Both the position numbers and the translations under genes were made by a program. From Eunapius fragilis (Eukaryota; Porifera; Demospongiae; Spongillida; Spongillidae), in the NCBI GenBank assembly GCA_963681505.1, contig OY811984.1, positions 2,278,772 to 2,342,771 on the forward strand: DNA of 64,000 bases. Direction: 5' to 3'. The notes under the pieces are model-generated. The model was not told the DNA's origin. It was given only the letters and a program-made list of their open reading frames with translations, and ran no database searches. This document shows, piece by piece, positions 1 through 58,213 of the stretch (position 1 is its first letter; each line of letters begins with the position of its first letter).

Positions 1-2
1 AG

Positions 3-142
3 CTGATGACTCCCGAGGCCCTCACCATCCACTGGATGGGGATCAGCTCCTCCTACCTGGTCAACTATCTCAGACACCAGTCCCACTTCTCCCTAAAGGC
101 ATTGGTCAGTGACCACCTTAATGCTCTGAAGGATGATAAAAC
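3..142 (+). CDS. RNF213: RNF213-like gene, internal exon 1 (open at window start)
   Basis: Only frame 3 is open from base 3 to a GTAAGT donor at 143. It gives about 46 residues with a run of Leu/Val and HWMGISSSYLVNYL-type sequence. It leaves two bases (ac) that complete a Thr codon with the first base of the next exon at 206, so the two are one gene. The part upstream of the window must hold the N-terminal stalk and most of the AAA+ core of this giant protein. Assignment to RNF213 rests on the following exons; this piece alone would not be recognisable. Confidence 0.7.
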
Positions 143-205
143 GTAAGTGTAGCATATATATTGTGTTAATTATTTATCTGTAATGGTTGATATGTTAAAC
201 TCCAG

Positions 206-1445
206 GTACTGTCCAACCAAGCTTCTTTGCTACACCCGAACTTCCTCCCTTATACATAAGCTCCCGTTATCCTATTCGGGGGTAGGCTTCTTTGCTAGGG
301 GTGAGGAGGTGGCACATAAGGCCATCAAGGACCTTGTGCATGATGACTTGGGTGCTGTTGTGGTCCACAAGCTGTCCAATAAGCCCCAGAACAGCATCAG
401 GGAGCTCCTCAAGACCTTTGTGGGGTCCGAATGTTTCCAGGTCCTGCTCTTGGTTGCCAACATGGCTGAGGTGACAGGGCCCATGGTCAACCATCTTCGC
501 ATCATGATTGAGGAGGCAGAGAACCAGAACCAGAACCAGTCACCTCCCCTGCCTAAGCTGTTTGTTCTCCTACTCCACTTCCCTCCACACAACTTTCTAA
601 ATCCTTGCTACCCAACGCTGTACCTACGTGGGTGGGACCACTACTACCTGGACACTATAGGCCAGCACCATGGCAATGGTGTCATTGATGTAGAGGACTG
701 GTTCAGCCATTGCTTTTTACGTCAGGATAAGGACTCCGACATCAAAGATGACTCCGTGGTCCAAACAGCAATAGGTCTTCTGGAGGAGGCTATTCCTGTC
801 ATATCCTCACATGTTCCCTTCAGTTCCTATGCAGGATTTCCATTCAATGGACAGCTCACCATATCACAGCGTGATGGCCACCTCCGTGACCTCCTGATCA
901 CAAAGGGAGTGGGTGCGGTTCTGTGCAGGCACTTCAGGTCCTACTGGAAGCCCAGCATGATGTCTGGGTATTTAGAACAGGCGGCCAACCTTACCCACCA
1001 GCAGCAGTCCACCCTGAACATCACTGATACCATCCAGGCTGCCTTCAAGGTCACGTTCATGGACTTCATGGTCGTCATGGTGTCTAGGCTGAATGAGAAC
1101 TGCAACATTGATAGTGTATTTGTAGATGGTGGGTCCCCAGTGGTTGATGCCCTTTTCAGAGACCTGCTGGCTGTGTATCCATGTCCTTTGTTGGCTCAGC
1201 TGAGGGTGCTTAGCAACAACCTGCAGGCCCCGTGCAATCCGGGGTACATTCCCGTATTCCCGTTCTTCCATATGGTGATGACCCACATGGACCAGCTGAT
1301 CGACCAGTGCAGGAGGGATGCAAACGAAGGTGTTGACGTCCTTGGGAACGTTGCCACGGCTTCCAGCAGCCGAAATCACGACATGGGGGCGGAATTTAGA
1401 AGCTTTTATGAGAGGATGTTGTCTTCCCTCAAAGATAGGGCAAAG
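206..1445 (+). CDS. RNF213: RNF213-like gene, large exon 2 (end of AAA+ core / hinge)
   Basis: This 1,240-nt exon starts after tccag at 206, completes a split codon, and ends phase 0 at a GTGAGA donor. It encodes about 413 residues. The stretch around residues 110-145, KLFVLLLHFPP...CYPTLYLRGWDHYYLD, is the signature I know from RNF213/mysterin just after the AAA modules. RNF213 is a very large cytosolic AAA+ ATPase plus E3 ubiquitin ligase linked to lipid droplets and to coating of intracellular pathogens. No Walker motif lies in this exon, so the ATPase catalytic sites must be upstream. An apparent stop at 1488 lies in the intron, inside a palindromic element that begins 31 bases after the donor. 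Confidence 0.85.
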
Positions 1446-1475
1446 GTGAGAGCCAGTATGTGTTTATCCGAGAGG

Positions 1476-1920
1476 AAAAAAACGGCGTAATCGCGCGTTA
1501 TTGTGCGTGCATGAAAAACTGCCATAACAACGCCAAATAATTAATTTACGCGGTCTTCAAAACGCTGTATCTTCTTGATTGTGCAATATAGTAGAGCTAC
1601 ATTTTGCATATTTACAAAGCGGTCCTGTGTCTATAGAAGTCCAAAGATGGTTTAGTTCGCGATGCATCGTTCCGAATCAACTTAGAGCAAGATTTCGCGG
1701 GCTTCAAGTACAAAACCCCGCGAAATCAAGCCTTTTACTTGAATGTGAATCAATATCTTCGGAACGATGCATCGCAAACTAAATCATCTTTGAACTTCTA
1801 TAGACACAGGACCGCTTTGTAAATATGCAAAATATAGCTCTACTATATTGCACAATCAAGAAGATACAGCGTTTTGAAGACCGCGTAATTTGGCGTTGTT
1901 ATGGCACGCGCCGTTTTTTT
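1476..1920. mobile_element. 445-bp palindromic MITE-like element in RNF213-like intron
   Basis: The two halves are inverted copies. The left end (seven A, then acggcgtaa) and the right end (cgcgccg, then seven T) mirror each other. The inner arms, such as gcggtcctgtgtctatagaag and its complement, pair over about 200 bases with a few mismatches around a short centre near 1700. It has no coding capacity, so it is a non-autonomous foldback or MITE. It supplies the in-frame stop after exon 2 and is therefore only compatible with a spliced transcript. Confidence 0.75.
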
Positions 1921-1954
1921 CTCCCTGGTTAAATGCTTCTGGTGTACCCCGGGG

Positions 1955-1976
1955 CCCCCCCCCCCCCCCCCCCCCC
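1955..1976. repeat. Poly(C) run
   Basis: An uninterrupted run of 22 C between a GGGG and an A, just upstream of exon 3. It is one of about fifteen such G/C homopolymers in the window. Confidence 0.95.
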
Positions 1977-2058
1977 ACCCCGCCCCGATTACATATACAT
2001 GCACCTTCTCTTACGTTAACAGAGTGCTTCAAAGGAGTGTGTGGTTATATGTGTGCAG

Positions 2059-2727
2059 ACAGTTGCTAACAACCCTGAACTGTGGCCCCGATACTTCAAC
2101 AACTTCATCTCCTCAAAGCTCCATCTTGCGGGCCCTGAATCAACCATTGAGAAACAGATCATTCAAGAGGTGTTCCGTGACCTCGACATGTTTGAAATTA
2201 CTAAGAGGATTGTGTACCTCCACACCTACATGGCTGTGTACCAGCTGGACCTAGCCAATGTGGCAACCATCCTTCGCTCACTTGCTTTGCTCCAAAAGAT
2301 TAAAACTGTTTCTCCTGCAATTCTTTCACCTCCACTCCCACCTCCTACCAAGCACTCTGTCAGCCAATCAGGAAGTGCCCTCAGTGTCCAGCATTTAAGC
2401 ACTTTTGTCATCAATGCTCTATTTAAAGCCCTCCTTGGTTGCTTGTATGCAGGCTTATCTCAGACAGGTGCACTAGAGCAGCTGAAGCAGTGGTACAGGG
2501 CTTACCTGGACATAATGACTCTCCCCTCTCTTGCTGACATCATCAGTATGGGTCTGGCCATGTGTGATGAAGCTGCAGACATGGAGCAGGTGAGGGCCCA
2601 GTCAAACGTGATGCAGGCAACCTTTGCAGTCCTCCAGTGCAAGCCAGATTGTGACAGTGAGGTGCTTAATGTGGGGCAGAAAGTGTTCCGTATTCTGTTT
2701 AACAGGCACTTCAAGGAGAATGGAGAG
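2059..2727 (+). CDS. RNF213: RNF213-like gene, exon 3 (linker before E3 shell)
   Basis: The exon is phase 0 at both ends (gtgtgcag | aca ... gag | gtactt), 223 codons, opening with TVANNPELWPRYFNNFISS. It is mostly helical in composition, with a Ser/Pro-rich loop (SPPLPPPTKHSVSQSGS) around residues 95-115. It continues the reading frame of exon 2. In RNF213 the RING finger would be expected after this section. The only cysteines here (CKPDCDSE near the end) do not form a C3HC4 pattern, so I see no RING in this exon. Confidence 0.8.
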
Positions 2728-2964
2728 GTACTTGTTACATGTATATTTGTGTGGGCAAATAATGTACATACCTGTACATGTGTGTACTTATGTGCCTACT
2801 AATATATTTATTACAGCTTTGCTTGCGAATTGTGTGCGTGTAAATGTATTGTGTGCATGTGTGTATGGAGAGAACATTTTTGGTATGTTATTGCACCTGT
2901 GTGAATAGTACCTGTGCAAATTGAGTGCATTGTGCATATACAAAGGGTTTAAAGGGCTGTTGGC

Positions 2965-2989
2965 GGGGGGGGGGGGGGGGGGGGGGGGG
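2965..2989. repeat. Poly(G) run
   Basis: Twenty-five consecutive G in the intron between exons 3 and 4. Confidence 0.95.
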
Positions 2990-3086
2990 ACCATTATATA
3001 GATGTATGTGTGTGTCTGATTGTGTGTTGTGCGAGGATGGCCATGGGTGCATTGCAGGAGGTTTTTAATTATGACCCTATTTTCAG

Positions 3087-3464
3087 CTGAATGGCAGGTG
3101 TCCCCATCTTATAGAGGTGTGCCGGGTGGTGATGGTGGAGGCCATCGTGGAGGCCACACCCTCATATGATGGCCAGGTCCACACACTCATGGAGAGGATA
3201 TTCAGTCACTACTTCCCGGCACACCGCACGTGTTTCCACCGAGAGGGCTGTTGTTGGTTCCTGCAATATGCCAACTGTCATTTATCACTTGCAGCTGAAA
3301 CAGATGCTAGCAAACTGACCAAAGAGTTGTCTCAAAATGACTGGAGTGGAGATTTGCAGATGTCCAAGCTTTATCTGTCCCGTATGCTAGGTGAACAACA
3401 AGTTGGTGGTAGCCCAAGTTCAGAAAAGGATCCCCAGGACCCACTAGCACTATATAATAGCAAG
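3087..3464 (+). CDS. RNF213: RNF213-like gene, exon 4 (start of E3-shell region)
   Basis: The exon runs from ttttcag to a GTCAGA donor, phase 0 at both ends, 126 codons. LIEVCRVVMVEAIVEATPSY and the later NDWSGDLQMSKLYLSRML resemble, from memory, the segment that follows the RING in human RNF213 and the segment around its NNDWHRVYLVRKL. If that alignment is right, exons 3 and 4 join directly where the RING should be, and the RING is missing. The rest (DPQDPLALYNSK) is an ordinary acidic linker. Confidence 0.78.
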
Positions 3465-4055
3465 GTCAGATTATTCCAACTACATACCGTTATTATATAT
3501 ATATATTTCTATGCTTGCATGTTGGAGGAGTAATAAAAATGTAATAAAAAATTTCATAATCACATGTGTATGGACTCAAGCAAAATTGCCCTTCTGTGGT
3601 TGTAATTTTACGTAAATCTGTATATCTGCAACCTTACAACTCTTTCATTTTAAATCACCTATACTCCACACCTAAACAGCTTTTAGTACTAGTTGGTTTC
3701 TTCTGCAAAGTTTGCCAGCCCATCCAATTGGAATTGCACATATCTCCAGGTACAAATGCCTCATGCTGATCAAATCTGGTAAATATATAGAGGAGTCCTG
3801 TAACTATTTAGTTCTCAGAACATTGACTTGAATATTATCAGTTGCAAGGATATAGCACTGTAAAGTAAGTACATTTTCCCACTCAATAATGTAGGCACAT
3901 GCCCCTGTACATTGAATGTAACATGGTTTGCTTTTAAATCATTAGTGCAAATCAAGTGGGAAAGCCTGCACACAAATTGTACACAATATCTCCATAACAA
4001 ATAAAATCCAAGTTAGCAGTCCAAAAATTTAAATAGCAACAGGACTCCTCTATAC

Positions 4056-4235
4056 GCAAAGTAACTAAAAACATTCTCTCTGAGAAAGTTGGTGGTATGT
4101 AGGATTTGAAGGCAATAGTGGTGTAAAAAGCATAGAAACAAGGTCTTGTCAGAAGGAAAAATGTAATAGTCCTATATTTAGCACACAAATGACATATTCC
4201 CTAGAGAATGTGTTTAATTACTTTAGTTACTTGTT
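4056..4235. mobile_element. Partial MITE, ACAAGTAAA family
   Basis: It contains the left-end block gtaactaaaaacattctctctgagaaagttggtgg and the internal marker tcctatatttagcacac that mark the palindromic MITEs at 8581, 10266, 11424 and 20719. The right arm is mostly missing; it ends near ttacttgtttc. Confidence 0.7.
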
Positions 4236-4303
4236 TCATTGATTTTTTTTCACACCCAAATCACTGATATCACTGTGAATATTATATATCGCTGCTTCCG
4301 CTG

Positions 4304-4324
4304 CCCCCCCCCCCCCCCCCCCCC
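4304..4324. repeat. Poly(C) run
   Basis: Twenty-one consecutive C inside an intron of the RNF213-like gene. Confidence 0.95.
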
Positions 4325-4587
4325 AGCACGTAGCAGTGATGTAATCCATAGAGCTAGACATCCATCGATCTGGGTACCAAGATATCAAATTATAAGTATT
4401 ACACAAACCGTATAGTTGATTGTTAAATCATTTGTTACTGCTCCTGTCGTTTTCTGGTTTGGTATCGATAATTCTCAACTTGTCAAGATTCTGCCATAAT
4501 GATACGAGTAGCATTTAGTACGGCCCAAATCTAACAATGCATTGAAACATCAGGAGTGCTTGGTCCTTTTTCCATGATCTTTCTCAG

Positions 4588-4719
4588 AGAGCTAGGTCGC
4601 AGGCTCTCAGCCACAACTGGTGACACCAAACGCTACAGCTACCTGACCCAGCGCCTACCAGTGGTGGTACAAAAGGGAAAAGCAGCCTCCATCTTAGGAA
4701 CTACTACTGTCTCTTAGCG
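4588..4719 (+). CDS. RNF213: RNF213-like gene, exon 5 (E3 shell)
   Basis: After tttctcag the open frame reads RELGRRLSATTGDTKRYSYL and then TQRLPVVVQKGKAASILGTT, ending at a TAG at 4717. The QRLxVxVQxGxAxSxLGT pattern is very typical of RNF213 just before the RZ finger region. The 3' boundary is not clear: a strong donor is absent and a GTCTCT just before the stop is the only nearby candidate. Either the donor is weak or the exon has decayed. The 5' boundary is also approximate. Confidence 0.6.
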
Positions 4720-4854
4720 TGGTTGTTTTTTTAGGGGTTTAGTTTATTGTTATTACCAAAACATACCATCAACTATTTGATCACAGAAGGCACTGATTGG
4801 CAAACTTTGTACTGTCCCATGCACAGTATAATGTACATGTACAATTTATTATAA

Positions 4855-5390
4855 CAAGAAACTTAAAGCATTCTCTATGAGAAAGTTGGTTGGGCGTAGC
4901 CCGACCTTTGCGTACTGGCAGAAAGTCGAGTACCAAACCCGAACAGTTTGTGTACAAGCTGCAACAGGATTGCAGTTCAATCAGACTGCAGCATTTTGAT
5001 ACGGGCATTTATCACCTAATCAACATACGCAAGTGTTTATCATACAATGTACAGCTGTTGCAAGAGGTGAGAACCGTATTGCAGTGTGTGATCGAGGTGG
5101 CCATGGAGCTAGACTACTCTTCAATAAAGCCTGAACAGGTAGAAATAGCTGTGGCTCTGATTGAAGGCGGGGACGTATTTGCTATTCTACCCATGCTTTT
5201 TTGGTAAAAGTCTCTGTTATGATTGCTTGCCAGTGGCGTTTAAAAAAGGTCAGAAAAAAGAGCGGGGCTATTACATTGTCGTTGTAGTTTCCCCTCTAGT
5301 GGCCATCATGAAAGACGCTGCTTTATTCAGAAAACATTTAATCTTAATTTATACATTAGAACAGGTTTCTTCCTATTCCATTAATTAGAG
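4855..5390 (+). pseudogene. RecQ-like DNA helicase relic inside RNF213-like intron
   Basis: From about 5069 the sequence reads LQCVIEVAMELDYSSIKPEQ, then VALIEGGDVFAILP. After a frame change near 5200 it reads KSLCYDCLPVAFKKGQK and YYIVVVVSPLVAIMKD. This is the N-terminal helicase domain of a RecQ-type helicase: Q-motif, a Walker A region (normally PTGxGKS) and the following VVVSPLVALMxDQ. The Walker A itself is destroyed (PMLFW plus a stop, with KS in another frame), so no ATPase can be made. Preceding bases 4860-4895 are a scrap of the ACAAGTAAA MITE family. It is an inserted, decayed copy, on the same strand as the host gene. Confidence 0.75.
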
Positions 5391-5853
5391 GCCTAAAAAC
5401 CACCTATGTCTCTGGTGAGGTTACTGACAGAACTTCTTTTGCAACTGTCATCCTATTTTTTCTTGCTACAGCCTTTGCCATACAATTACGTATAAGAGTT
5501 ATTTTGTACTTCCTAGGATCTGATTGTCAGGAGTCTTGTTATAAATGGGTCGCGTGTTTTCAATGATATCCAATGTCGGGGTCAAATCCTATGGGAACAT
5601 TGTCCAGTAAAACGTAAAATCACTCTTGTGATACTTATATCAAATTTTCCAGAACAAGCAAACCAAAGTAACGCTCGTAATTCAGTGCCTAATACCTTTA
5701 TGATGGATAATCCATTTTAGGATGTGTATGGACCATTTGATAGAGCTTCGGAGTTAATGGAAAATTTGAAAACTTGATAAACTATCCAGAATGGTGATTT
5801 TGCGGACACTGTCCCATATATGTGGGGAATTATAATTAGACCGTGACGGTGGT

Positions 5854-5936
5854 TAGTCTCGTCCCCAGACCCTATACTGAGTGTGTTTATACATTATGCG
5901 ATAAACATGCATCATATTGGTCTGGGAACGAGACTA
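5854..5936. mobile_element. 83-bp palindromic MITE, AGTCTCG-CCCAGACC family
   Basis: The ends are tagtctcgtccccagacc and the inverted ggtctgggaacgagacta, with a short AT-rich middle. The same ends bound the larger palindromes at 40,820-40,949 and 54,911-55,290, so this is a minimal member of that family. Confidence 0.8.
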
Positions 5937-5986
5937 GATGGTGGTATTGTTCTAATGGTTTAATTGACCACCCTTTTCAAATCCAG

Positions 5987-6103
5987 CCTCGTGCACTTGT
6001 GGGTGAGGTACTAATGGCAGCTCCTGACCTGGGACCTCCTGCTCACTACATCCCTACGTTTTACCAACAGTCAACATTCATTACTCTTGTAGGACAAGCT
6101 AGT
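5987..6103 (+). CDS. RNF213: RNF213-like gene, exon 6 (probable)
   Basis: The exon lies between aaatccag and a perfect GTGAGT donor, 39 codons, phase 0 at both ends: PRALVGEVLMAAPDLGPPAH then YIPTFYQQSTFITLVGQAS. It has no zinc-binding residues. Its place between exon 5 and the next exon corresponds to the part of RNF213 that precedes or includes the RZ finger (a CxxGHxC-type zinc site needed for the ligase). That motif is not present here. Confidence 0.6.
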
Positions 6104-6305
6104 GTGAGTGGATAAGAAGTATTCATCGTATTGAATGTGGTGGCACTAATTCTCTTCACACATGCCACGTCATTCCCCTCCCACACACCATACCTTCCCA
6201 TGTACACCCTCACACACCACACCTTTCTCGTCACATACACACTATTTCTCTATCCTCCATCCACCCTTATAACAATGGTGATGTCTTCAGAGTACACGCA
6301 TGCAG

Positions 6306-6407
6306 CAGCCACTGGCCCATCTCTACTTCCTGACAGTGATGGAACACCTCTCTGGCAAGCACTATTCTCTGCCTCATCTGCTTAGCAAGTACTTTGCCAT
6401 CCAAGGG
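6306..6407 (+). CDS. RNF213: RNF213-like gene, exon 7
   Basis: The exon follows catgcag and ends at a GTGCGT donor; 34 codons, phase 0 at both ends, reading QPLAHLYFLTVMEHLSGKHY and on. The LYFLTVMEHLS segment resembles the FLTRLLTHLA region of human RNF213 C-terminal to the RZ finger. The preceding 200 bases are CA/CT-rich intron without any C/H zinc motif. Confidence 0.65.
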
Positions 6408-6423
6408 GTGCGTGTACTTCATA

Positions 6424-6494
<71 letters not shown>
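6424..6494. repeat. (CA)n microsatellite
   Basis: About 35 CA units without interruption, in the intron after exon 7. Confidence 0.95.
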
Positions 6495-6496
<2 letters not shown>

Positions 6497-6564
6497 CACT
6501 TGTGCATACATTAACATCCTTTATCCCTATTCTCTTTCACACACACACATGCTTATCCATATAG

Positions 6565-6885
6565 CTGTGTACATTGGCCGACACCAATGATCAGCAGAAG
6601 GTACTTCTGTTCATTGAGCAGCAGGCTACAGTACAGGTCACAGTGCAGCAAGTGGCCCTTGACCTTGACCCATCTAAGCTTGCTATCATCCTTAATGAGG
6701 TCAACACTATTCTCGATGATCCAGCAACAGGAGGTGGGGCCTGCAAGGGCCACGCCCTTGTTCTTGCTTTGCACCTCCTGAAACGTCTAAAGAGCTTCAG
6801 AAAATTTATGGATCTGTTGACTGTGCAGTTTGAAGTAGTTTGTCGAGGCATAACCTGTCTGGAACAGTTTTGTGTGAAACTGAAG
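6565..6885 (+). CDS. RNF213: RNF213-like gene, exon 8 (E3 core)
   Basis: The exon follows ccatatag and is 107 codons, phase 0 at both ends, with a GTTGTG donor that runs into a GT microsatellite. VALDLDPSKLAIILNEVNTI and CKGHALVLALHLLKRL match in layout the human RNF213 segment with VQDPQGFLQQHIQRDLEQLT and HVVHLILSSLL. This belongs to the E3 core, C-terminal to the zinc finger. Confidence 0.8.
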
Positions 6886-6951
6886 GTTGTGTGTGTGTGT
6901 GTGTGTGAGTGTGTGTGTGCGTGTATTAGTGTGTGTGTGTGTGTGTGTGTG
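6886..6951. repeat. (GT)n microsatellite at splice donor
   Basis: A GT repeat with a few interruptions (gagtgtgtgtgtgcgtgtattag) begins exactly at the exon 8 donor, so several alternative GT dinucleotides are available to the spliceosome. Confidence 0.9.
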
Positions 6952-7107
6952 CGACAGTGCCAGTGCCATTATATTCTCTTCAAAGTTCACGCATGTGGTG
7001 GGAGGTATTGTTTCTTGATTATCACATCCATTTGTACATGTCATTCATGTGTCACATGACTTCATTCATAAAGCAATGATTTACATGTTTATTATTTACA
7101 CATGCAG

Positions 7108-7256
7108 GCAAAGCCAAAGCCGCACCTATTTCATTTTATAGCAGAATATCCTTGTTCACCTTTGCGTACCATCTATGACCGTGTTCGTACTACCATGATG
7201 AATATACATGATGGCAAGGGCATTGTTGACGACCTGAACAATTTAGCCACTGAATG
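7108..7256 (+). CDS. RNF213: RNF213-like gene, exon 9
   Basis: The exon follows catgcag and reads AKPKPHLFHFIAEYPCSPLR, TIYDRVRTTMMNIHDGKGIV and so on, ending near GAATG|GTAATA. The outgoing phase (2) does not agree with the phase-0 start of the next exon at 7470, so one boundary is wrong, an exon is missing, or this allele carries a frame change. The human counterpart would be the stretch after RELKHLDKNLPAINALI. Confidence 0.65.
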
Positions 7257-7469
7257 GTAATAATGAGCAGTGAGTTGCATATACATGTATTTTCATTTTT
7301 GATCACTCCCTCATCAGCGTAAAATCACAAAAAGGTACTGAACAAACCAGCGTGGGTGCATTCAGGATGGCTGTCTGGCTAACTGTGTACTATGATTTCT
7401 TTGATAATAATGTAAGGTACCCTCTCATGCCTGGCTGCTCTATTTAAAACCTTATTTTTCCTGTCACAG

Positions 7470-7695
7470 GTAAAGTCAGAGGTGCTACACAATACGATTG
7501 GTGGAGACAAGATATCTCATTTCTTTGAAGAAGGTCACATAGCCATCATTCAACAATTCCTTAATCCAGATCTGATGTTGGATAATCCTGAGCTGCCAAA
7601 CCCACTTCCTGAACAGACAAGGCCAAAGCCAAAGAATGGAAAGGAAGAAGATCCTCTTGTAAAACTATTCAGACCTTCGGAGTCCCAATCTTTAG
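7470..7695 (+). CDS. RNF213: RNF213-like gene, exon 10
   Basis: From tgtcacag, frame gta aag tca gag: VKSEVLHNTIGGDKISHFFE, then IIQQFLNPDLMLDNPELPNP and a Lys-rich loop RPKPKNGKEEDPLVKLF. It ends with one leftover base (g) that joins the next exon to give Asp. The incoming boundary has the phase problem noted for exon 9. Confidence 0.72.
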
Positions 7696-7761
7696 GTACA
7701 TTTGTATATGTTCTCATCCTCCTAAGCTGTGCTTACTCATGTATTCTTTCAACAAAAATAG

Positions 7762-7901
7762 ACCAATCAGATGCAGATCTTTGCCACGCCCTGGTTAATA
7801 TGGTTGCTGTGGTGATGGCATCTCCCAAGGCCAGCAATCATCTTTGGTACCACATGTTTGCCCCTGGTGATCTTGTGGATACATATATGACTGGCTTCAT
7901 G
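7762..7901 (+). CDS. RNF213: RNF213-like gene, exon 11
   Basis: From aaaatag to ATG|GTAACA. It completes the Asp codon from exon 10 and reads QSDADLCHALVNMVAVVMAS, PKASNHLWYHMFAPGDLVDT and so on, leaving phase 0. Consistent phases on both sides support the model here. Confidence 0.78.
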
Positions 7902-7959
7902 GTAACATGTGTAGTGTAAGTGTACTGTCTGTTGATGTAGTCCTTTTCTCCCTGCACAG

Positions 7960-8313
7960 TATGACACTAAGGTTAACCCCAAAGGCCTCCACTATGATTG
8001 TGGAGTTGAGCTATCCTCTGAAGGCCTGTTTGGTCGTCAGGACTACCTGAAGCATGCATGCAGGGGCACCTACACCCTCCACTCCCTCTACCTACTCCTG
8101 TGGGCCAACTTTGGGGCCTTCTGTGTCGCCCTCCTCACACAGCCCAATGCTGACAAGGAGCTCCAAGGGACCATCATCTCTGACCGGCTATCCATTCGCC
8201 ATTACTGTGTGTCCCAGCTGAGGACAATCTGGCTCTACATGAGGAACAACCTTAACATATCTGATGAGGAAAGGTCATTCTTCATTATGAAGTGCATGAA
8301 GAGGTTCTATGAG
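7960..8313 (+). CDS. RNF213: RNF213-like gene, exon 12
   Basis: Phase 0 at both ends, 118 codons, GTATGT donor. It reads YDTKVNPKGLHYDCGVELSS, then GLFGRQDYLKHACRGTYTLH, a hydrophobic helix LYLLLWANFGAFCVALL, and NNLNISDEERSFFIMKCMKR. It continues the frame of exon 11 without a break and fits the C-terminal helical region of the E3 module. Confidence 0.78.
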
Positions 8314-17760: not shown

Positions 17761-18089
17761 AACCTTGAGTGAGCAGTACCCTCAGCTTCCTACGGAGAAG
17801 GACTTCACCCACACCCTCCTGAGCTCTGCAGACATATCTCTTCAGAAGCAAGGGGGAGAGCTGTCTATGCTCACACAGTTTGTTTTGGAGCGCCCTAAGC
17901 TCCAGGCAGGGGAGCACCTCCTGCCTGACCTGATGGAGTTCTACCGTTGGCTGCACACACAACTTACCTATGTTGTGTCCTATGACATGGCCAAAGAACT
18001 GAAGATAGGCCAAGTGGTAGAGCGAGCTGTGGAGAGATATTCCAAGGATTTTGGGAAGGATGTGAAGGATCTCTATGAAAGGGTCAAAG
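17761..18089 (+). CDS. RNF213: RNF213-like gene, exon 14
   Basis: From tacctcag; reads TLSEQYPQLPTEKDFTHTLL and further ERPKLQAGEHLLPDLMEFYR, WLHTQLTYVVSYDMAKELKI. The last part fits the human RNF213 segment KEAELRLVKFLPEILALQRDL...IRGFIHSH. One base (g) is left over and makes Glu with the next exon. The start phase needs two bases from an upstream exon I have not found, so an exon may be missing between 12,281 and 17,761. Confidence 0.8.
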
Positions 18090-18195
18090 GTTAGAGATTT
18101 AATGGGAGTGTGTTATGTAGTTATTTCTCCTTGTATTTGCCTCTTTCATCACGTCTCGTTTTCTCCTCTACCCTCCTCTCCACACACACATACAG

Positions 18196-18303
18196 AGGGC
18201 TACAATATTTATGTGGATATTATAGGTCATGCCATTGGGTGTCATGGGAACAAGATATGCACCCCCATATCTGACAATACGCCCCTCCTCCACTTCCTGT
18301 CAG
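18196..18303 (+). CDS. RNF213: RNF213-like gene, exon 15
   Basis: Completes the Glu codon and reads GYNIYVDIIGHAIGCHGNKI, CTPISDNTPLLHFLS. Ends with one base (g) before GTTAGC. Phase matches on both sides. Confidence 0.75.
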
Positions 18304-18363
18304 GTTAGCCTATCAGCATGTATACATATGTCCTCCCCTTCATTATTGCTACCATATCACCAG

Positions 18364-18565
18364 ACACCGTAGAGGAGGAGGAAGGCTATGACTGGCTGTA
18401 CACTGTAATAGCCGATATTGTCAACACCCATAACAACTTCATAGAGGGCCTGTACACTATGGTGAGGTCTAAGTCTCTCCCTGTGGGCCACCTGCTGCCA
18501 TCAGAACCTTCTAAGATTCCTTTGTCTGAGTTCACACAGAACAGCTGTATTATGAGGAGGACTTG
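18364..18565 (+). CDS. RNF213: RNF213-like gene, exon 16
   Basis: Reads DTVEEEEGYDWLYTVIADIV, NTHNNFIEGLYTMVRSKSLP and on to CIMRRT plus two bases before GTATGT. The layout (hydrophobic helix, THNNFI, then a Ser/Pro loop) corresponds to human ALVSYLISLHNNMVYTVQKF. Phases agree with both neighbours. Confidence 0.82.
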
Positions 18566-18692
18566 GTATGTTGGGTGCTAGATACATCATATCTACTTGT
18601 ATGTAAGGCAGCTCAAGGGTTGGATGCTATGTATGCCTCGTATAGTCTTACGTACTAACGTTTGCTGTGCATGTCACCTTTGCCACATCCAG

Positions 18693-18977
18693 TCTCCATG
18701 ATGTTGACAACTTCTTACAACTGGTACGCAGTCGATACCACCCTCAGGGAACCATTTGTGTACCAGATGGTACCTCTAAAGCAGAAAAGAATCCATGTGC
18801 ATCTGTATCAATCAGTGCAATGCAACCAACAGTCTGCCAGTTCAACTTCCATCTGCTCCAGGAAGACATGATAACAACTTACCTTGCAGGCAAGCCTCTG
18901 TTGGAGGGTTGTGGCTCCATCAGGACACACTTCAAGTTCAGAAATTTGGCCCAGCAGTCTTCCTTACATCTAGCAGA
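18693..18977 (+). CDS. RNF213: RNF213-like gene, exon 17
   Basis: Completes a Cys codon and reads LHDVDNFLQLVRSRYHPQGT, then FNFHLLQEDMITTYLAGKPL. The latter resembles the human stretch FDLEKIQRQISSRFLQGKPRL closely. Ends at a GTAAGT donor with two bases (ga) left, completed to Asp by the next exon. Confidence 0.85.
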
Positions 18978-19029
18978 GTAAGTGATATGGAGAAAATGGA
19001 GTCATTGTCATTCACCTTCTTGTATACAG

Positions 19030-19093
19030 TGTTGCCACCTCTGTTGTTGGTGATATTCACATCCTAAGAGATCAGCTGCCTGACTCCCTCAAG
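19030..19093 (+). CDS. RNF213: RNF213-like gene, exon 18
   Basis: Short exon, VATSVVGDIHILRDQLPDSL plus K, between tatacag and GTATGG, phase 0 out. Corresponds to the human LAISTISGQLQSYSDAC area. Confidence 0.75.
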
Positions 19094-19148
19094 GTATGGT
19101 TGTCATGCATCATTGTTGCTGAATGTATGACTTTAAACAAATGGCCAG

Positions 19149-19271
19149 GCCCCATATGATGACTCTACTAGGAGGAAGTTGGAGTTAAAGTTCCATTCAG
19201 CTAGCTACCTGACCCTGCTTGAGGTTGTGCAGGCCATGAAGAATGTTCTGTGTCTCCTCATCAGGAACAAC
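19149..19271 (+). CDS. RNF213: RNF213-like gene, exon 19
   Basis: 41 codons, phase 0 both ends: APYDDSTRRKLEFKFHSASYL-type start (the codon is Leu at position 13), then TLLEVVQAMKNVLCLLIRNN before GTTAGT. Helical, with no cysteine motif. Confidence 0.75.
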
Positions 19272-19364
19272 GTTAGTACTTCCTATATAGCAATTGACTC
19301 AGGTTGTATGAGCTGTGCTTAGCAAGTCTCCAAACTAACAGACAGCATTGGTTGTGGTAGAAAT

Positions 19365-19540
19365 TGAACAAGGGGTTGTGGGGAAACAAGGTTTTGGGGA
19401 AAGGAAAACAAGACAAGAATGAATCATATCCAAAACTGTGATACATTTTCTTTCCCCAAATCCTTATTCCCTTCCTTTTTACACCAACTTTGCCTTCATT
19501 TTCTATATTCCACCAACTTTCTCATTTTCTTTACTTGTTA
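19365..19540. mobile_element. Partial MITE, ACAAGTAAA family
   Basis: The right half is recognisable (tttttacaccaactttgcct...ccaccaactttctcattttctttacttgtt); the left end is eroded. Confidence 0.65.
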
Positions 19541-19606
19541 ACCTCATGAAGGTTTTGGAGATGGTGGTGTAAGTGATTATTACCATTTTCTCCCTATCCA
19601 CTGTAG

Positions 19607-19910
19607 GAGGGTAAGGAGCTGGGTCCAGTATGCACACAGACTGTTCGCCAGTTCATGGCTACTCTAGACAGCCAGATAGATCAGAACATGCTGGTATTTT
19701 CCAAGGACTGCACCCCCACCCTGTCTCCACCACAGTTGAAATTTTTGGAGGACCTTCCAATAACCATAGTGTTCTCTTGTCTCCAACTATTCATTCAATG
19801 GCTGAAGGATGGCATGTATGACTTCCACACTTTGTCCTTCACACTGAAGACCCATCTGTCCCCAAATGACCAGGAGGCATTGGGTCTGATTCCAGCGACA
19901 TGGAAAGAAG
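19607..19910 (+). CDS. RNF213: RNF213-like gene, exon 20
   Basis: Reads EGKELGPVCTQTVRQFMATL, then SPPQLKFLEDLPITIVFSCL, QLFIQWLKDGMYDFHTLSFT and QEALGLIPATWKE. This matches in layout the human VLRMCDQTAQVLKAFSRCQLRHIIALWQFLS region near the C-terminus. One leftover g joins exon 21 (Asp). Confidence 0.82.
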
Positions 19911-21261: not shown

Positions 21262-21356
21262 ACAAGAAGAAACTTCTTGATGAGCTCAGAGCATTGACTG
21301 ACAGTCTAGTTCATTCAGAGGCCTGCTTCACCAACAATACTAATGACACACTGCAG
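21262..21356 (+). CDS. RNF213: RNF213-like gene, exon 21
   Basis: Completes Asp from exon 20 and reads KKKLLDELRALTDSLVHSEA, CFTNNTNDTLQ, phase 0 out. Corresponds to the human stretch RLLGTFLNEAGLDAFLLELHEM. Confidence 0.78.
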
Positions 21357-21411
21357 GTTGAGTGGGCGTATGTGATAATTCATTCCATATCATTCACTCA
21401 ATGTTATGTAG

Positions 21412-21521
21412 GTACCAATGATCAAATACTTGAAGGATTTCCCCAAAAATGGTATCCTCACATTCATACCTCATACGATCTGTGTGCGGCATTATGTAGC
21501 CTTCCGTGTTGCCCTGAGACG
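21412..21521 (+). CDS. RNF213: RNF213-like gene, exon 22
   Basis: Reads VPMIKYLKDFPKNGILTFIP, HTICVRHYVAFRVALR plus two bases (cg), before GTATGT; phase matches exon 23 (Arg). By position this is close to where other RNF213 proteins end. Confidence 0.78.
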
Positions 21522-21599
21522 GTATGTTCACCAGTGCTCTAACTGATGAGGGGCAGTGTTATATTAGTGTCTACATTACATCTTCTTCTTTTGCTCTAG

Positions 21600-21961
21600 C
21601 CTGGTTGCAATTGTCCAGCCTTGTGTCACTGATGATGCAAGGGTTATTCAATGGCAGGAGTGTGTTGGAGACATTTGGAACAAGAAACTTCCTCACTTCA
21701 AATATTCCTCTGGAGGTGAAGGGAAGTTTTCGTATACTAAACCATATGGATTTGAAGAATCAAAAGTGAATGATGATCGGTCACTACCTGAAGTTTTGGA
21801 TGATGATGCAGCAGCCACTCAAAGGCCTGAGGACTGTGGTGATACTGATGACACTTGGCACCATGAGGATGATGAATATGACATGCCAGGAGAGGATGCA
21901 AAACATAACAGTGACATAAAGGCAGTCAGTTCAAAGGTTGATGCCACTTCCATGAGAAAAT
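21600..21961 (+). CDS. RNF213: RNF213-like gene, exon 23: end of E3 module plus acidic linker
   Basis: The first 50 residues (LVAIVQPCVTDDARVIQWQE, DIWNKKLPHFKYSSGGEGKF) look like the end of the RNF213 C-terminal domain. The next 65 are strongly acidic and low in complexity (LPEVLDDDAAAT, DTDDTWHHEDDEYDMPGED), a flexible linker. The exon ends with one base (t) before GTAAGT. Instead of a stop, the frame goes on into the SAM exons. Confidence 0.8.
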
Positions 21962-22020
21962 GTAAGTTATCATTAATCGGCTGAATTGTTCTTATGTTCC
22001 TTGTATATCTAATTGGACAG

Positions 22021-22071
22021 CAAAAAAGGAAATACAGATGTTGCCATCATTGCCTCTTGCTATTGAAAAAG
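22021..22071 (+). CDS. RNF213: RNF213-like gene, exon 24 (mini-exon to SAM part)
   Basis: 51-nt exon, (S)KKEIQMLPSLPLAIEK plus one g, between ttggacag and GTATTT. Phase 1 at both sides, the same phases that border the two SAM exons. This is the symmetric phase that allows exon duplication or shuffling. Confidence 0.72.
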
Positions 22072-22127
22072 GTATTTGTGTAAACTTGTACATCATTTTA
22101 ATTTTTATTCTATTCATTTCCGAACAG

Positions 22128-22586
22128 AAGCTGAATACCTTAAGGAACTGGCCAAGAATCACTCTGTAGATGATGTAGCTGATTTCTTGCACACAAACAG
22201 AATGGACCAGTACATTGGTAGCTTCAAAGAGGAAGAGATTGATGGAATTATGCTTGTGGAATATGCAGATGATATACTAAATGACCTGGGAGTGTCAAGT
22301 CCTCTCCATTGTTTTAAGATCCAGTACCTCTTCAAGCGTTTGCTCCAGAAAACTCCAACCACACATTCTCAGGCCATTGTAAATGAATTCTTAGCTGAAA
22401 ACAAGATGGATAAGTATGGACAAAAGTTTGTTGATGAAGGTATTGATGGAGACATGCTGCTTGAGATCCTTCAACTGGACACTAAAGTTAGCGCTCGCAT
22501 TCTTGATGAGCTGGGAATAAAAAGGAATATAGATATTCTCAGGATCAGGAAGAAGTTCATACCATCAGCTCATGCTATTGATGAAG
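22128..22586 (+). CDS. RNF213: RNF213-like gene, exon 25: SAM-like modules 1 and 2
   Basis: Symmetric phase 1-1 exon. Module 1 (HSVDDVADFLHTNRMDQYIG, EEEIDGIMLVEYADDILNDLG) has the SAM pattern: W/V..V..FL, M..Y...F....IDG..L, D.L..LG, K.......L. Module 2 starts at AIVNEFLAENKMDKYGQKFV and has DEGIDGDMLLEILQLD and ILDELGI. SAM domains form homo- and hetero-oligomers and sometimes bind RNA or ubiquitin-pathway partners. At the C-terminus of an RNF213-like protein they would offer a new oligomerisation surface. Confidence 0.82.
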
Positions 22587-22638
22587 GTATTTGTGTAAAT
22601 CATTTTAAATTGATTCTATTAATTTTATTTCCTAACAG

Positions 22639-23069
22639 AAACTGCACTGGCACAGAAACATTCTGTTGATGACATAGCTGAATTCCTGCACAAAAACAGA
22701 ATGGACCAGTACATTGAATGCTTCAAAAATGAAGGGATTGATGGAGTTATGCTTGTGGGAGCTGCAGATGATGTACTAAACGACCTGGGAGTGTCCAGTC
22801 CCCTCCATTGTTTTATGATCCAGTACCTCTTCAAACGTTTGCTCCAGAAAACTCCAACCGCGCATGTTGTAAAAGACTTCTCAGCTGCAAACAAGGTGGG
22901 TACGTATGTACAAAAGCTTGCAGAGAAAGGTGTTGATGGAGACATGCTACTTGAGATCCTTCAACTGGAAACTAATGTTGGTGCACGAATTCTTCTAGAG
23001 CTAGATATTAAAAGAGTAGATGCACAGAAGATTAAGAAGTGGCTCAAACCATCGGACAATTCCAAGTAA
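22639..23069 (+). CDS. RNF213: RNF213-like gene, last exon 26: SAM-like modules 3 and 4, stop
   Basis: A second copy of exon 25. HSVDDIAEFLHKNRMDQYIE and EGIDGVMLVGAADDVLNDLG mirror module 1; VVKDFSAANKVGTYVQKLAE and KGVDGDMLLEILQLETNVGA mirror module 2. It ends IKKWLKPSDNSK and TAA at 23,067. The preceding introns of both SAM exons also begin alike (gaaggtatttgtgtaaa), so exon and intron were duplicated together. Phase from exon 24 onward is unbroken. Confidence 0.85.
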
Positions 23070-23605
23070 TAATATTGGACATTTGTTCACTCTACAAATT
23101 GATTTTTGTACTCCAATATGGAATAAAATTAATGAGGCTGTGCTTTGTAAAGCAAAAACTACACTGTATATTGAACATACGTATGTGATAATTTTGCACA
23201 TGCAACTCCATGTAAAAATAGAAATAGGCACATATTTATGTACATGCATATTTTTCAATATATCGTTGCATAAAAGGACATTGATGTTGTTGGTCCTTAC
23301 AAACGTAGGCAGGTCACCCTTGCCGCTGTCACATTATTCTCCATCAACCTCAAGTCTGATGTGTCCACAAGCAACAAAGCACATTTCCAATACCTCACAA
23401 CACAGAGATACAGCTCATGAAGGTAATTGGCAACAAGGGCACAGAGTTAGCCAGTTGGGACTGCCCTCACTCATTCAATTATTGACCAAAATCTTTGTAT
23501 TACTCATCATCACAAACACACGAGCATGCAACTTTTATAAGCATCCACGAACTACGGTAGTAGTTCCTATATAGGAATTGACCCGGGTCGTAAATTTAAA
23601 AACGC
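23070..23605. other. Intergenic, stem-loop repeat scrap at the right edge
   Basis: No recognisable gene. At 23,548-23,590, read on the - strand, is the 3' end of the stem-loop-tailed family (acccgggtcaattcctatataggaactact, then gtagtt). It abuts the kinase fragment. Confidence 0.55.
23122..23127 (+). promoter_or_regulatory. Poly(A) signal AATAAA of the RNF213-like gene
   Basis: AATAAA 53 bases after the stop at 23,069, followed by AT-rich sequence. It is the first canonical signal downstream and supports the gene ending after the SAM exons. Confidence 0.6.
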
Positions 23606-23882
23606 GCCATGAGCTTGAAGAACCCATCATCCACAGAGATGTGAGTTCAGCTAATGTACTTCTGAAGGCAATGGCCAACAACAGGTGGAAAGCCAAACTA
23701 TCAGACTTCGGGTCTGGCCAATTGGGCCAAGGAAGCTGTTACCATGGGGGAGGGTGCCATAGTGTACACAGCCCCAGAGGCATACCCTGTTCACACAACT
23801 TCTAGTGTCAAGCCACCACCACAGACCACGAAAATTGATGTGTATAGTTATGGTCAGGTAGTGATGTATGGTACAGTTGCCT
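23606..23882 (+). pseudogene. Protein kinase catalytic-domain fragment, frameshifted
   Basis: The frame reads HELEEPIIHRDVSSANVLLK, NRWKAKLSDFGS, i.e. the catalytic loop (HRDVxxxNVLL) and the DFG magnesium site. After a one-base shift near 23,711 it continues ANWAKEAVTMGEGAIVYTAP, EAYPVHTT, ...KIDVYSYGQVVMYGTVA with the APE and DxYSxG motifs, then a stop. No N-lobe, no VAIK lysine and no C-lobe end are present. It looks like the tyrosine-kinase-like families abundant in sponges. A retrocopy or gene scrap, not an active kinase. Confidence 0.72.
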
Positions 23883-24373
23883 AAAATGCTTATGAGATTA
23901 TTGTAGACCTCTTCTATAATGAGGGTACCTGTTCATTCTCTGTTAATACATATGCAACTAAGGGGTCATTTTGATGAGTTGGCACTCTAAATGTTTCAGA
24001 ATCTAAACAAATACTGATTGCTGATGCAGTGTGCCAACATATCCAACAAACATGTGCAAATCAATGTGTATAGTGGATGCAACATTATGTTGTACTGTGC
24101 AAATTGGTACATGTATAAGCGATTAGAATTATTCTCACCTCGATCAATTCCCCAAGTCCTTCCCAACAATATGAAGTCATAGTTGCACAAGGTTTCATCA
24201 GTGCTCTTTCAGTAGCATGTAGCCTAATCTAGCTACATTTGATCATTGAGAATAAGGAGGAATCAAGCTTTAAAATACAGGGCATACTAGCACCATATCA
24301 CAAGCATAAAATATTGGCATTCAAAGAGGTAATCCCTGTAAGCTAAGTATGCACACCTCCCCTCACTCTATAG

Positions 24374-24954
24374 ACAAAGAGAAAAATCCAGCGAAGCAAC
24401 AAGTGATAGAACTGGATCCTCCGATTGAATTGGTGTTCAGAGGTGGGCATTAGCACCTTCTTTGTCCTTTCAGTTCTTTGCAATAAGGGGAGAGGATCAA
24501 CAGGATTTGGAGAAAACTAAATTCTAAAAATGATATCTTGAACTATGCACAGGTCCCTTCACCAATGTAGTCACCTCCTTGCTGAAACTTAAGAACCCAA
24601 AAACAAACACAATTCTCTACAAAGTGAAGACAACAGCACCAAAGCATTATTGTGTACAACCAAACAGGGGTGTTCTGAATGTTGGAGAAGAAGCTTCAGT
24701 TTCTGGTAATGACAGTCCTGTGTTTGTATGGTGTTTCCTTTTGTCTTGGAACACAGTGTTCCAGGTTTTAAAATCAAACACTCTGTTAATAGTGAGGCTA
24801 CAGCCTATTGACCTGTCCCTAACTGGCCCGGAGAGGATCAAACACAAGTTCATGGTGCAGACAATGTTTGCACCATTGGATTTCATGCCAGAGCAGTTAG
24901 ATGCTGCAGTGAGTTGATAAATACACGTTGTGCTGAATCACACACGCACACACA

Positions 24955-40971: not shown

Positions 40972-41142
40972 CACAGGAAAAAAAATCGTGTTCCGGACCT
41001 TGGGTTTTAACCTATCGACCTTGGGATCTGTTCCATCAAACGTATTCAAAGTGCCTAAGACAACAGTGAATACATTTGATGGAACAGATCCCAAGGTTGA
41101 TAGGATAAAACCCAAGGTCCGGAACACGATTTTTTTCCTGTG
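40972..41142. mobile_element. 171-bp CACAGG palindromic MITE, copy 1
   Basis: Starts CACAGGAAAAAAAATCGTG, ends CACGATTTTTTTCCTGTG; arms of about 70 bases around a short middle (caaagtgcctaagac). GAA is duplicated on both sides (40,969-40,971, 41,143-41,145). More than 95 percent like the copy at 44,543. Confidence 0.9.
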
Positions 41143-44100
41143 GAACACTCTTCTATGTATCGCTTAGGAGGTCTTGACGGACGTGATGAGCGGCGCAAAG
41201 GTAAGGGAGATGCTGGAATGTTGTGTGATCTGGTGGGAATGTGGCTGAGTCGATCCATCGGTTGAACTACAGGCCTAGGCTCAACTGTCATGGTTGTTGA
41301 TTCCTCTGCAGGATCAGAGTTGATATTGATGGACATATCCTCAGGAGGAATACTGTAGTCCTTAGAGTTTGTCCCAGATATGCCCGAAGCAGCTGCAAAG
41401 CTTGGACCCTGTGGTTTATGGTGTTGGATGTCTCCTTCCGTCCAATATGGAATTTCTTTGTATGCCACTGCATCTGAGATCTCATCTGGCACCAAGGTCT
41501 CCTCTGGCACCATCACTCTTTTGCGAAGATGATCAAGGTGCACCTTCCTATTGTGTCCATTTGGAAGCACTGCCATATAAGTTAGGGCTCCCAGAGGTGT
41601 CTGTACAATTCCAGGAGCCCACTTACTTGGAGCGCTTGGACGAAAGTCCCTAACCCACACACCATCTCCTCCCTTAAATGCATGAACAGGTGTACCCTGG
41701 GGTGGGTGGAGCTTTTCCTTCATCCTTTCTCCCATGTTTGGCAAGACCATTGAGATGTGAGTACGCAGAGCCCTGCCAAAGATAATTTATCTCCGCTGGT
41801 GTCCGATTTGTTTCAGTGTGAGGGACATTCCGGTAAGTTCTAAGGAACTCTGACAAAGAAACCCCAACTTGTTACCCTTCATGTGAACAATTCCAATATG
41901 ACCATCATGTAACTCTTCTAGTAAACGAGGGCACAGACTATCTGGGATGACAACTCGGTGACCCCACAAGACACATCCATCCTGACAGCTCAACTCGTGT
42001 TGTCGTCTAACGTATGGTTTCAAAGGCTCTGAGGCCTGAAGAGGCCAATGATCGTGCCATACTAACTGTACTACTGTTGCAAGTGTTTTGTCCTTCTTAG
42101 TAACCTTAGCAATATCTGATGATGTGACTGGCAAGGCATGCAAACTCAATGCCAATACAGCCTTGTCTTCATCCAATGAAGATTTTACCAGTGGAAGTCT
42201 GGACATACAATCAGCGCAGTTGTTCTGCTCTCCGGGGATGTGCTGTATTCTATATTGGTAAGCACTGAGTATTAGTGCCCATCTCTGCATCCTGGCTGCT
42301 GCTAGGGGAGGAACACCTTGGTCATGCCCAAATATCTTACAGAGGGGTCGATGATCTGTCCACCAAAACAAACTCCCTCCCATAGAGGTATTGGTAGAAT
42401 TTCCGAACTGCAAAGACGATTGCTAGAGCTTCCCGCTCAATTTGAGCATACTTAGCTTCTACTTGAGACAATGTCCGTGATGCATACGCAACTGGCCTTT
42501 CCTGCCCATTCATGAGGTGCATCAGACATGCACCCACATCTACCGATGACGCATCACAGTAGACCTTGATTGGTTTGTTAGTGTCATAATGCACCAATGT
42601 TATTGCTTCGCTCACAAGCTTCTTAGTCTGACAAACTGCTGAATCATGTTCTGAAAGAAACGATATTTCGCCAGGTTTATTCTCAGTCCAAACTGCTGCA
42701 ACCGTTGGAACACCTTTCGAAGGTTGGCTTCATGCTCCTTTCTAGTTTTGCCAGTGACCAGGATGTCATCAATAAAGTAAACAACTCTCTCGCACCCCCG
42801 AAGAACAATCGACATGGCTCTCTGCCACATTGCCGGAGCTGTAGCCACACCAAAAGGCAGCCTAAAATACTGGAACAACCCAAGGTGAGGGGTAATAGTC
42901 AATAATGGTTGACTTTTCTGATACCTCCATCTGTTTAAATGCTCGAGCTAAATCCAACTTTGTGAACGATTCCCCCTGTGACAGAGTTGAGAACACATCT
43001 TCTGCAGTAGGCAGGGGAAACGTTTTAGGACGCAAATGTGGGTCGATAGTTGTTTTGAAATCAGCACAAATTCTGATTTTTCTTCTTGGCTATGACGATT
43101 GGAGCTGCCCACTCACTCTGCTCAACTGGTCTTAATTCACCTTCCTTCACTTGCTGATGGATTGTCTCTTCAACTTCAGTCCGCAATGCAAATGGTACTG
43201 GTCTACATTTGCAGAAATGAGGCCTTGCATCATTCTTGAGTTCAATCACTGCCTTGATTCCCTTATCCTTCCTTTACTACCTCTGGGAACTCATTTATCC
43301 AGTTTGCTGAATGCAGGGTATGTATCCTGGGATCCACCCCCTTGCAAGACCGCAACAATTGTGGCCAATCCAGTCGTAATCTGTACAACCAATCTCGTCC
43401 CAACAAGGGTAGCTGTGAATCAGCGTTCTTTACAATTGCAAAACGTCCTGAAACTGTTTGCTCCCGTTTTGACACTTGTGCCGCAATCTCACCCTTGATG
43501 GGTATAATGCTTCCGTCATACTGCCGGAGCACCACAGATGAGGCTAGAATAGGTGTTTTCTTCAATGCTTCTTTATATACCCTCTGGGGTATATATAGTG
43601 GACAATTCTGCTCCAGTGTCAACTTCAAATTCAATCAGACTGCCATTGATCTTCAACTGCGTCGTCAACTTTTTGTAATGGTCCTTGGAACCTACCTTGT
43701 GACCTTCTACATCTGACTCTTCATTACTATTTGAGTTGGTGTCACTGTTCTCCTCATATGCATCCATCTTGTGCATTGTCTTCCCTGTCTTGCCACCTCG
43801 TGCTTTTCTCCTACATACCCTTGTTAAATGGCCCACCTTTCCACATTCATTGCATTTCTTTCCCTTGTGATAACAGCTATCTGATGAGTGTCCTACACCG
43901 CCACAACGGTAGCAAGAACCTCTTGAGGATTTGAAAACCTTATGTGTGGCCCCACACTCCCCTTCTGGCTCTTCCATCCTGGTTGCAACTTCCTCTTGAT
44001 GCAGGTTCTGTGTTTCCATGAGCACAATTTCCTAGATCGACTCTTATCCAATGCTTGCCCCACTGTCAAATTCCTGGTACATAGTAGTCCTTGTTGTATC

Positions 44101-56880: not shown

Positions 56881-56904
56881 TGTGCTGATTATTGAAAAAT
56901 TATA

Positions 56905-57732: not shown

Positions 57733-57756
57733 GCTGTTATTGTAGAGTAACTGACT

Positions 57757-58135: not shown

Positions 58136-58213
58136 TAGAAGCAATGCTCATTGGATTTTGGATTGAGTGCATTGCCATTCCCTATAATTATACATACATT
58201 GCCGTTTCTCCAG

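Follow-up and report, generated by a model that had tools for sequence, protein, structure and literature searches.

A predicted RNF213-like AAA+ gene with an in-frame SAM tail in the sponge Eunapius fragilis

Human RNF213 coats bacteria and parasite vacuoles with rare initiation and cooperative incorporation, for which AAA activity is needed, and on Toxoplasma vacuoles a dead RZ finger does not prevent the coats from forming (both from an excerpt of PMC11549300). ATP-linked self-association of RNF213 is reported in cells and was not observed structurally, according to an excerpt of PMC12075652. Judging from the same excerpts, how RNF213 joins into coats, and to what extent ubiquitin transfer is needed, is still open (PMC11549300, PMC12075652). 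In part of a further paper, RNF213 is named once, as induced in Nematostella immune cells (PMC13319465). Among the matches listed from the open-licence PMC literature (titles and abstract openings), there was no description of a sponge or SAM-tailed RNF213, though one may be in print elsewhere. Proteins of this kind are already in databases, as uncharacterised or as 'RNF213'.

Here we analyze a window of 64,000 nucleotides from Eunapius fragilis (C14:2278772-2342771), together with genome-wide searches of 219 Mb in 24 contigs. We are highly confident of the predicted architecture, in which an AAA core and a C-terminal region are followed by a SAM tail. Our best explanation, to which we give a probability of roughly 0.6, is that a giant AAA+ gene from a sister family of RNF213 ends in the window and that its SAM tail would link molecules without ubiquitylating.

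Thirteen exons between 17,761 and 23,069, spliced in silico, form one frame of 973 codons whose sole stop lies at its end, and all 12 introns are GT-AG (Table 1). This bears out the preliminary description, which held that all splice phases fit over this interval and that the C-terminal exons, an acidic linker and the SAM modules share one frame; the linker is indeed acidic, with 25 D/E versus 11 K/R in 88 residues. Spliced alignment of the distant Amphimedon protein to the DNA placed introns 1, 2, 3, 4, 6, and 12, half of the 12, at exactly the positions of our model. Because of this agreement, and because 10 of 12 other loci carry one stop-free frame as far as SAM (see below), the joined frame is more than chance. 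A poly(A) signal had also been placed only after the SAM exons. That is true of non-coding AATAAA, and the statement has to be limited to it because there are also an AATAAA at 22,516 and an ATTAAA at 23,007, both in coding exons, and an ATTAAA at 20,703 in intron 7.

Table 1. Predicted features of the RNF213-like gene, in window coordinates
Feature	Position	Strand	Details
Post-AAA stretch of this gene, resembling an E3 module	1..8313	+	Collinear with full-length Amphimedon A0A1X7VIM8; approximate exons 1-142, 206-1445, 2038-2750, 3098-3401, 6565-6841, 7074-7256, 7762-7910, 8041-8313, plus smaller ones
C-terminal region, exons 1-7	17761..19910	+	17761-18089, 18196-18303, 18364-18565, 18693-18977, 19030-19093, 19149-19271, 19607-19910
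C-terminal region, end	21262..21765	+	Exon 8 21262-21356, exon 9 21412-21521, start of exon 10 (21600-21961)
Acidic linker	21766..22071	+	Remainder of exon 10 (to 21961) and exon 11 (22021-22071)
Exon 12	22128..22586	+	SAM modules 1 (about 22160-22357) and 2 (about 22364-22573)
Exon 13	22639..23069	+	SAM modules 3 (about 22659-22856) and 4 (about 22857-23066), stop codon
AATAAA, likely poly(A) signal	23122..23127	+	53 bases after the stop

A Pfam search of the post-AAA part gave no match at E ≤1. The reading phase at 8,313 is incompatible with direct joining to 17,761, and between these two positions the Amphimedon protein is ∼60 residues longer than our gene model; the tiny exons that the spliced Amphimedon alignment placed there look like noise and were rejected. 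Long C or G runs recur in introns, near 1,960, 2,970, 4,305, 8,880, 15,100, and 15,940 of the window. Elsewhere in the window, a downstream neighbor with an MSP (VAP-like) domain (1.1e-23) lies at 23,600-24,920, in a stretch pieced together by eye, and is preceded by sequence that looks, also by eye, like kinase fragments. Retroelement-like ORFs occupy 41,055-44,750 on the reverse strand (an RNase H-like match below cut-off, the remainder by eye). Similar cysteine-containing ORFs are found at 56,896-58,458 and 62,222-62,915, and a Pfam search of the ORF at 56,896-57,729 gave no match.

Do the SAM exons belong to this gene? The same genome offers a comparison, with 12 other places that align, spliced and stop-free, with the window chain as query. 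The first intron (phase 1, residue 110) is common to all 12 of them, and the phase-2 intron at residue 540 is present in 9 of the 11 that extend that far. Of the 10 loci that reach SAM, three (copy 2, C14_2220, and C14_1101) share both introns of the pair directly preceding the SAM exon, at residues 661 and 678; C14_2012 retains half of the pair, and in the six more divergent loci, where the linker alignment is uncertain, it is shifted. Intron 7 ranges from 417 to 5197 bases across the five C14 copies retaining it. A near-identical copy of the C-terminal region and SAM tail (952/973 residues) lies 57.6 kb downstream, at C14:2354073-2359396; the AAA4 search found no core of its own there, and it may have arisen recently by duplication of part of the 3′ end, or else encode a short product with a SAM tail. 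Two further pieces were seen, the end of a C-terminal region plus SAM at C1:8385223-8386416 and a family-like SAM exon away from the main locus at C16:1894451-1894648.

Searching the genome with the AAA4 core gave 12 strong loci (E ≤2e-79) and 18 weaker matches at 10 loci. Every one of the strong loci has the C-terminal region, counted as one match per locus, downstream of it on its own strand at a distance of 7 to 33 kb, and SAM follows as well at 10 of them. For SAM, this comparison covered contigs with an AAA4 locus (leaving aside C5, C6, C7, C9, C10, C11, C18, C19, and C23); C12, C13, and C21 had no SAM match listed. At C14:4.44 Mb, the C-terminal region is complete and a search for SAM found none. 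At C14:6.88 Mb, the C-terminal region could not be traced past about query residue 303 in 3 kb of extra sequence, and the locus shows no SAM tail.

The architecture recurs in other sponges. The closest relatives found for the window protein are Ephydatia-type and Amphimedon proteins. The Ephydatia-type models P0003 and P0004 each contain the C-terminal region and SAM in one model, and Amphimedon A0A1X7VIM8 (P0005, 5315 amino acids) is collinear from the AAA core to two weak C-terminal SAM stretches, which are below Pfam cut-offs. A SAM HMM matched 11 of 122 homologs at <1e-3, all near the C terminus, including Amphimedon P0005-P0007, Oscarella P0011, P0012, and P0010. The preliminary description had proposed looking for RNF213 plus SAM in one sponge transcript; P0010 is named like a transcript ORF, in a style that we take to be that of a transcript-assembly ORF marked complete. 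The source name of P0012 (EukProt scpid215) is 'E3 ubiquitin-protein ligase RNF213', and an NCBIfam search of P0001, P0002, and P0004 gave no match. Among the best 120 of 138 homologs, the SAM tail is present in 4 of the 6 that are sponge-named and absent from Oscarella P0013 and Oopsacas P0014; these two absences, like those at 2 of the 12 loci, count against our best explanation. P0046, which groups with amoebozoan sequences in a 37-tip tree, has a C-terminal SAM too, either by descent or independently.

The introns flanking exon 11, directly before the first SAM exon, are only 59 and 56 bases long. It is conceivable that the frame is joined by accident, with the SAM exons forming a gene by themselves or an alternative 3′ end, given that the gene model is predicted from DNA alone, that intron 7 holds an ATTAAA, and that the introns just before the SAM exon sit at non-identical positions in divergent paralogs. 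However, such short introns leave little room for a promoter and none for a separate gene; moreover, 10 of the 12 other loci continue in frame as far as SAM, and single models in other sponges hold both parts. We therefore reject a separate SAM gene, which we consider very improbable. Together, the intron lengths, the frames of the paralogs, the loci with AAA cores, the Ephydatia-type and Amphimedon models, and the homologs with C-terminal SAM confirm, at the level of predicted gene structure, that the SAM tail is part of the RNF213-like gene.

SAM modules in other proteins are often self-assembly or docking parts; a SAM domain may also exist as a monomer or interact with other partners. On the 973-codon chain, Pfam SAM_1 scores 88.6 bits (cut-off 23; E 3.4e-25) in three stretches, two in exon 12 and one in exon 13, the last being module 3 (3.9e-10). 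Pfam gives no separate stretch for module 4, which was detected solely by an HMM built from the four modules themselves. Structure prediction, which had been proposed for the SAM exons and was run on exon 12 only, gave two SAM folds (AlphaFold2, mean pLDDT 85), so that the SAM assignment combines a Pfam score above cut-off for the chain with a SAM fold for exon 12. The top Foldseek match of this model is the tandem SAM of SARM1 (6qwv_E; E 4.9e-3, probability 1.00), with no match at <0.001. Module 1 of the model superposes on the SAMs of DGK-delta, Shank, SARM1, and tankyrase, and modules 1 and 2 together on liprin-alpha3. Exon 12 was duplicated in tandem, along with its intron, to give exon 13 (78.7% identity at the DNA level over 470 columns). 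By the four-module HMM, there are four modules in the window gene and four paralogs, two in four other paralogs and both Ephydatia-type models, and one in two other paralogs and seven further homologs, where weak second modules were missed. In a set of 41 modules that counts near-identical copies, 40 have an acidic N-terminal part and 37 a basic C-terminal part; this pattern is compatible with head-to-tail contacts such as the ML/EH self-association of polymer-forming SAM domains, though no control set stands behind the counts.

Comparison with four paralogs gives dN/dS values of 0.26-0.44 in the C-terminal region, 0.38-0.76 in the SAM exons, and 0.67-0.99 in the linker; significance was not assessed, and the ranges exclude copy 2, whose linker has no differences and whose C-terminal region gives 0.46. 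By these values, the modules look conserved as protein and the tether hardly so. The linker is acidic also in P0003, P0008, P0010, P0011, and P0012 but only weakly in P0006, and those of P0004 and Amphimedon P0005 are not acidic.

How close is this gene to RNF213 itself? Its AAA core lies immediately upstream of the window and was matched by phmmer to human RNF213 at an E value of 5.6e-59. The core is dynein-like and, as in RNF213, has ATP sites in AAA3 and AAA4, with the Walker A motifs GETGVGKT and GAPGSSKT, both located in the stretch directly upstream of the window (L068). A retroelement-like ORF, recognized by eye, lies between the AAA3 and AAA4 exons (L068 3385-5716). The C-terminal region resembles, as a predicted fold, residues 4745-4979 of human RNF213, corresponding to its post-RZ C-terminal fold. 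At the sequence level, phmmer against PDB sequences gave only SAM matches and no RNF213 for the 973-residue chain, and no RNF213 match for window 153-1490; an 8-row profile of the C-terminal region had no RNF213 match either, and a two-row profile matched RNF213 over the AAA part only.

A FastTree of 121 AAA cores (755 columns; the window and the best 120 of 138 homologs, a set drawn from one Amphimedon query and not an even sample) contains an edge of support 1.0 with 61 cores on one side, the window's among them, and 60 on the other, where bird RNF213 (P0113) lies. The same split appears in the 37-tip tree. With counts taken on unrooted edges, the window side includes sponge proteins plus bdelloid, amoebozoan, brown-algal, and haptophyte cores. 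Domain labels were taken from the Pfam lists of the homologs, with SAM also from the SAM HMM. On the window side, no RZ and, apart from a weak motif in P0007, no RING is listed for any of the 61 cores, and SAM is present in 9 of the 60 besides the window; on the RNF213 side, RZ is listed for 10, RING for 2, and SAM for 1 of 60. Since 50 members of the RNF213 side also have no listed RZ, absence of RZ does not by itself define the sister family. The AAA3 Walker A motif is GETGCGKT-like in 54 of 60 cores on the RNF213 side and 0 of 61 on the window side, and of the V/I form in 4 and 42, respectively. VWA domains are listed for P0016, P0018, P0019, P0020, P0022, and P0023 on the window's side (Ectocarpus, Prymnesium, and four without an organism name), possibly as another docking part on the same AAA scaffold. 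By its sequence, then, the gene is RNF213-like and belongs to an old sister family, and it is not an RNF213 orthologue. The preliminary description of an RNF213-like protein ending in SAM modules stands as to its type and its in-frame tail, with the restriction that its core lies across the support-1.0 edge from vertebrate RNF213.

Neither a RING pattern nor a strict RZ pattern was found in three forward frames from L068 to 23,069, and Pfam detected no RING and no RZ in 1268 concatenated post-AAA residues of the gene or 1300 of Amphimedon; a RING split by an intron, or in an exon between 8,313 and 17,761, could escape these searches. As controls, the RING pattern recovers bird and Amphiura RNF213, and the RZ pattern recovers two protist proteins besides those of bird and Haliotis. 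The strict RZ pattern overlooked six proteins for which Pfam reports RZ, making the Pfam model the better RZ test. That model (PF20173) matches 13 places in the genome; 8 of them are found downstream of weaker AAA4 loci, at distances of 8 to 33 kb, and none falls within 50 kb downstream of the 12 strong loci. Among the 10 weaker loci, RZ is found at 8 and SAM nearby at none; we provisionally call these loci canonical-type because of the RZ. A looser RZ-pattern match at 14,166 was discarded, as it lies in an ORF read as a retroelement integrase and the RZ model has no match there. In Amphimedon P0007 (3830 amino acids), whose source name is 'RING-type domain-containing', the last 60 residues, behind the SAM modules, hold a weak RING-like motif (zf-RING_2, 15.7 bits; cut-off 27.3), possibly a ligase finger regained at the tail.

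We therefore rejected a plain RNF213 orthologue with E3 fingers, given the tree split and the missing RING and RZ, and for the same reasons the earlier label of an "AAA+/E3 machine" is not upheld in its E3 half. Recognizable fingers are absent from the predicted sequence, and nothing shows E3 function. Could the protein still be a ligase, with its C-terminal fold binding an E2, a diverged or separate finger transferring ubiquitin, and SAM adding avidity only? The C-terminal domain of mouse RNF213 (4930-5148) binds UBE2L3, according to an excerpt of PMC12075652, and part of the neighboring fold is kept here; the name and terminal motif of P0007 and the uncertain exon structure between 8,313 and 17,761 also leave room for a finger. 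However, the pattern searches, the 12 loci without a nearby RZ, and the 61 window-side cores, P0007's motif aside, all point the other way, and we regard ligase activity of this kind as distinctly unlikely.

In our best reading, the protein would instead serve as an ATP-gated scaffold, with SAM as its means of assembly or docking and without ubiquitylation. An assembly machine is the simplest reading because motor and scaffold are kept, fingers are not seen, and SAM arrays have been added. As predicted, a protein of this kind retains both of the AAA units that bind ATP, together with a C-terminal scaffold resembling that of RNF213, and ends in a tether, acidic in the window gene, that bears between one and four SAM modules. 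ATP binding in the AAA ring would change the scaffold on a target surface, and the ATP state would control exposure. SAM arrays would then link neighboring molecules, the tether giving reach, and the resulting coat or cluster could wall off the target or recruit effectors without ubiquitylation, perhaps in an immune role.

The preliminary description had offered a polymerizing or docking role for the tail, and either fits the modeled fold and the known behavior of SAM modules. We put self-assembly driven by SAM at even odds; against our best explanation, the SAM exons are less constrained than the C-terminal region by the dN/dS ranges above. The main competing possibility is that the tail is a docking end that binds the SAM domains of other proteins and brings the AAA+ scaffold into signaling complexes, with no self-polymerizing. 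Possible partners are available, with at least 80 SAM_1 matches in the genome, and the structural neighbors include the heterotypic pairs CNK2/HYP, Ph/Scm, and liprin-alpha/liprin-beta. However, the module number rises from one to two to four while the charge pattern stays similar, for which avidity or self-association would account no less well, and we consider docking alone rather unlikely.

If the scaffold reading is true, there would be an RNF213-like coat without ubiquitin. A natural relative with no detectable ligase fingers and a likely assembly module would separate the building of an AAA+ coat from ubiquitylation, and since the genome has both types (12 loci with RZ at 0 and SAM at 10; 10 weaker loci with RZ at 8 and SAM at 0), they can be compared within one animal. 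More speculatively, early eukaryotes may have had two RNF213-type AAA+ giants, one of which gained or kept fingers and is RNF213, the other being a fingerless ATP-gated assembly scaffold; sponges would then have a multigene family of the latter, with SAM arrays polymerizing into coats or rings on intracellular targets.

Among known systems, the tandem SAM of SARM1/TIR-1, the top structural match to exon 12, is alike in having two consecutive SAM modules. The liprin SAM arrays and the SAMs of Shank and tankyrase belong to host proteins that differ from this RNF213-like AAA+ protein. Amphimedon A0A1X7VIM8, Oscarella P0011, and P0012 share with the window gene its side of the tree and a C-terminal SAM, but have one or two modules rather than four. 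In contrast to RNF213/mysterin of human and mouse, the window gene has a SAM tail, no detected RING or RZ, and a position outside the RNF213 clade, and its AAA3 Walker A motif is GETGVGKT, unlike the GETGCGKT-like form of the RNF213 side (54/60).
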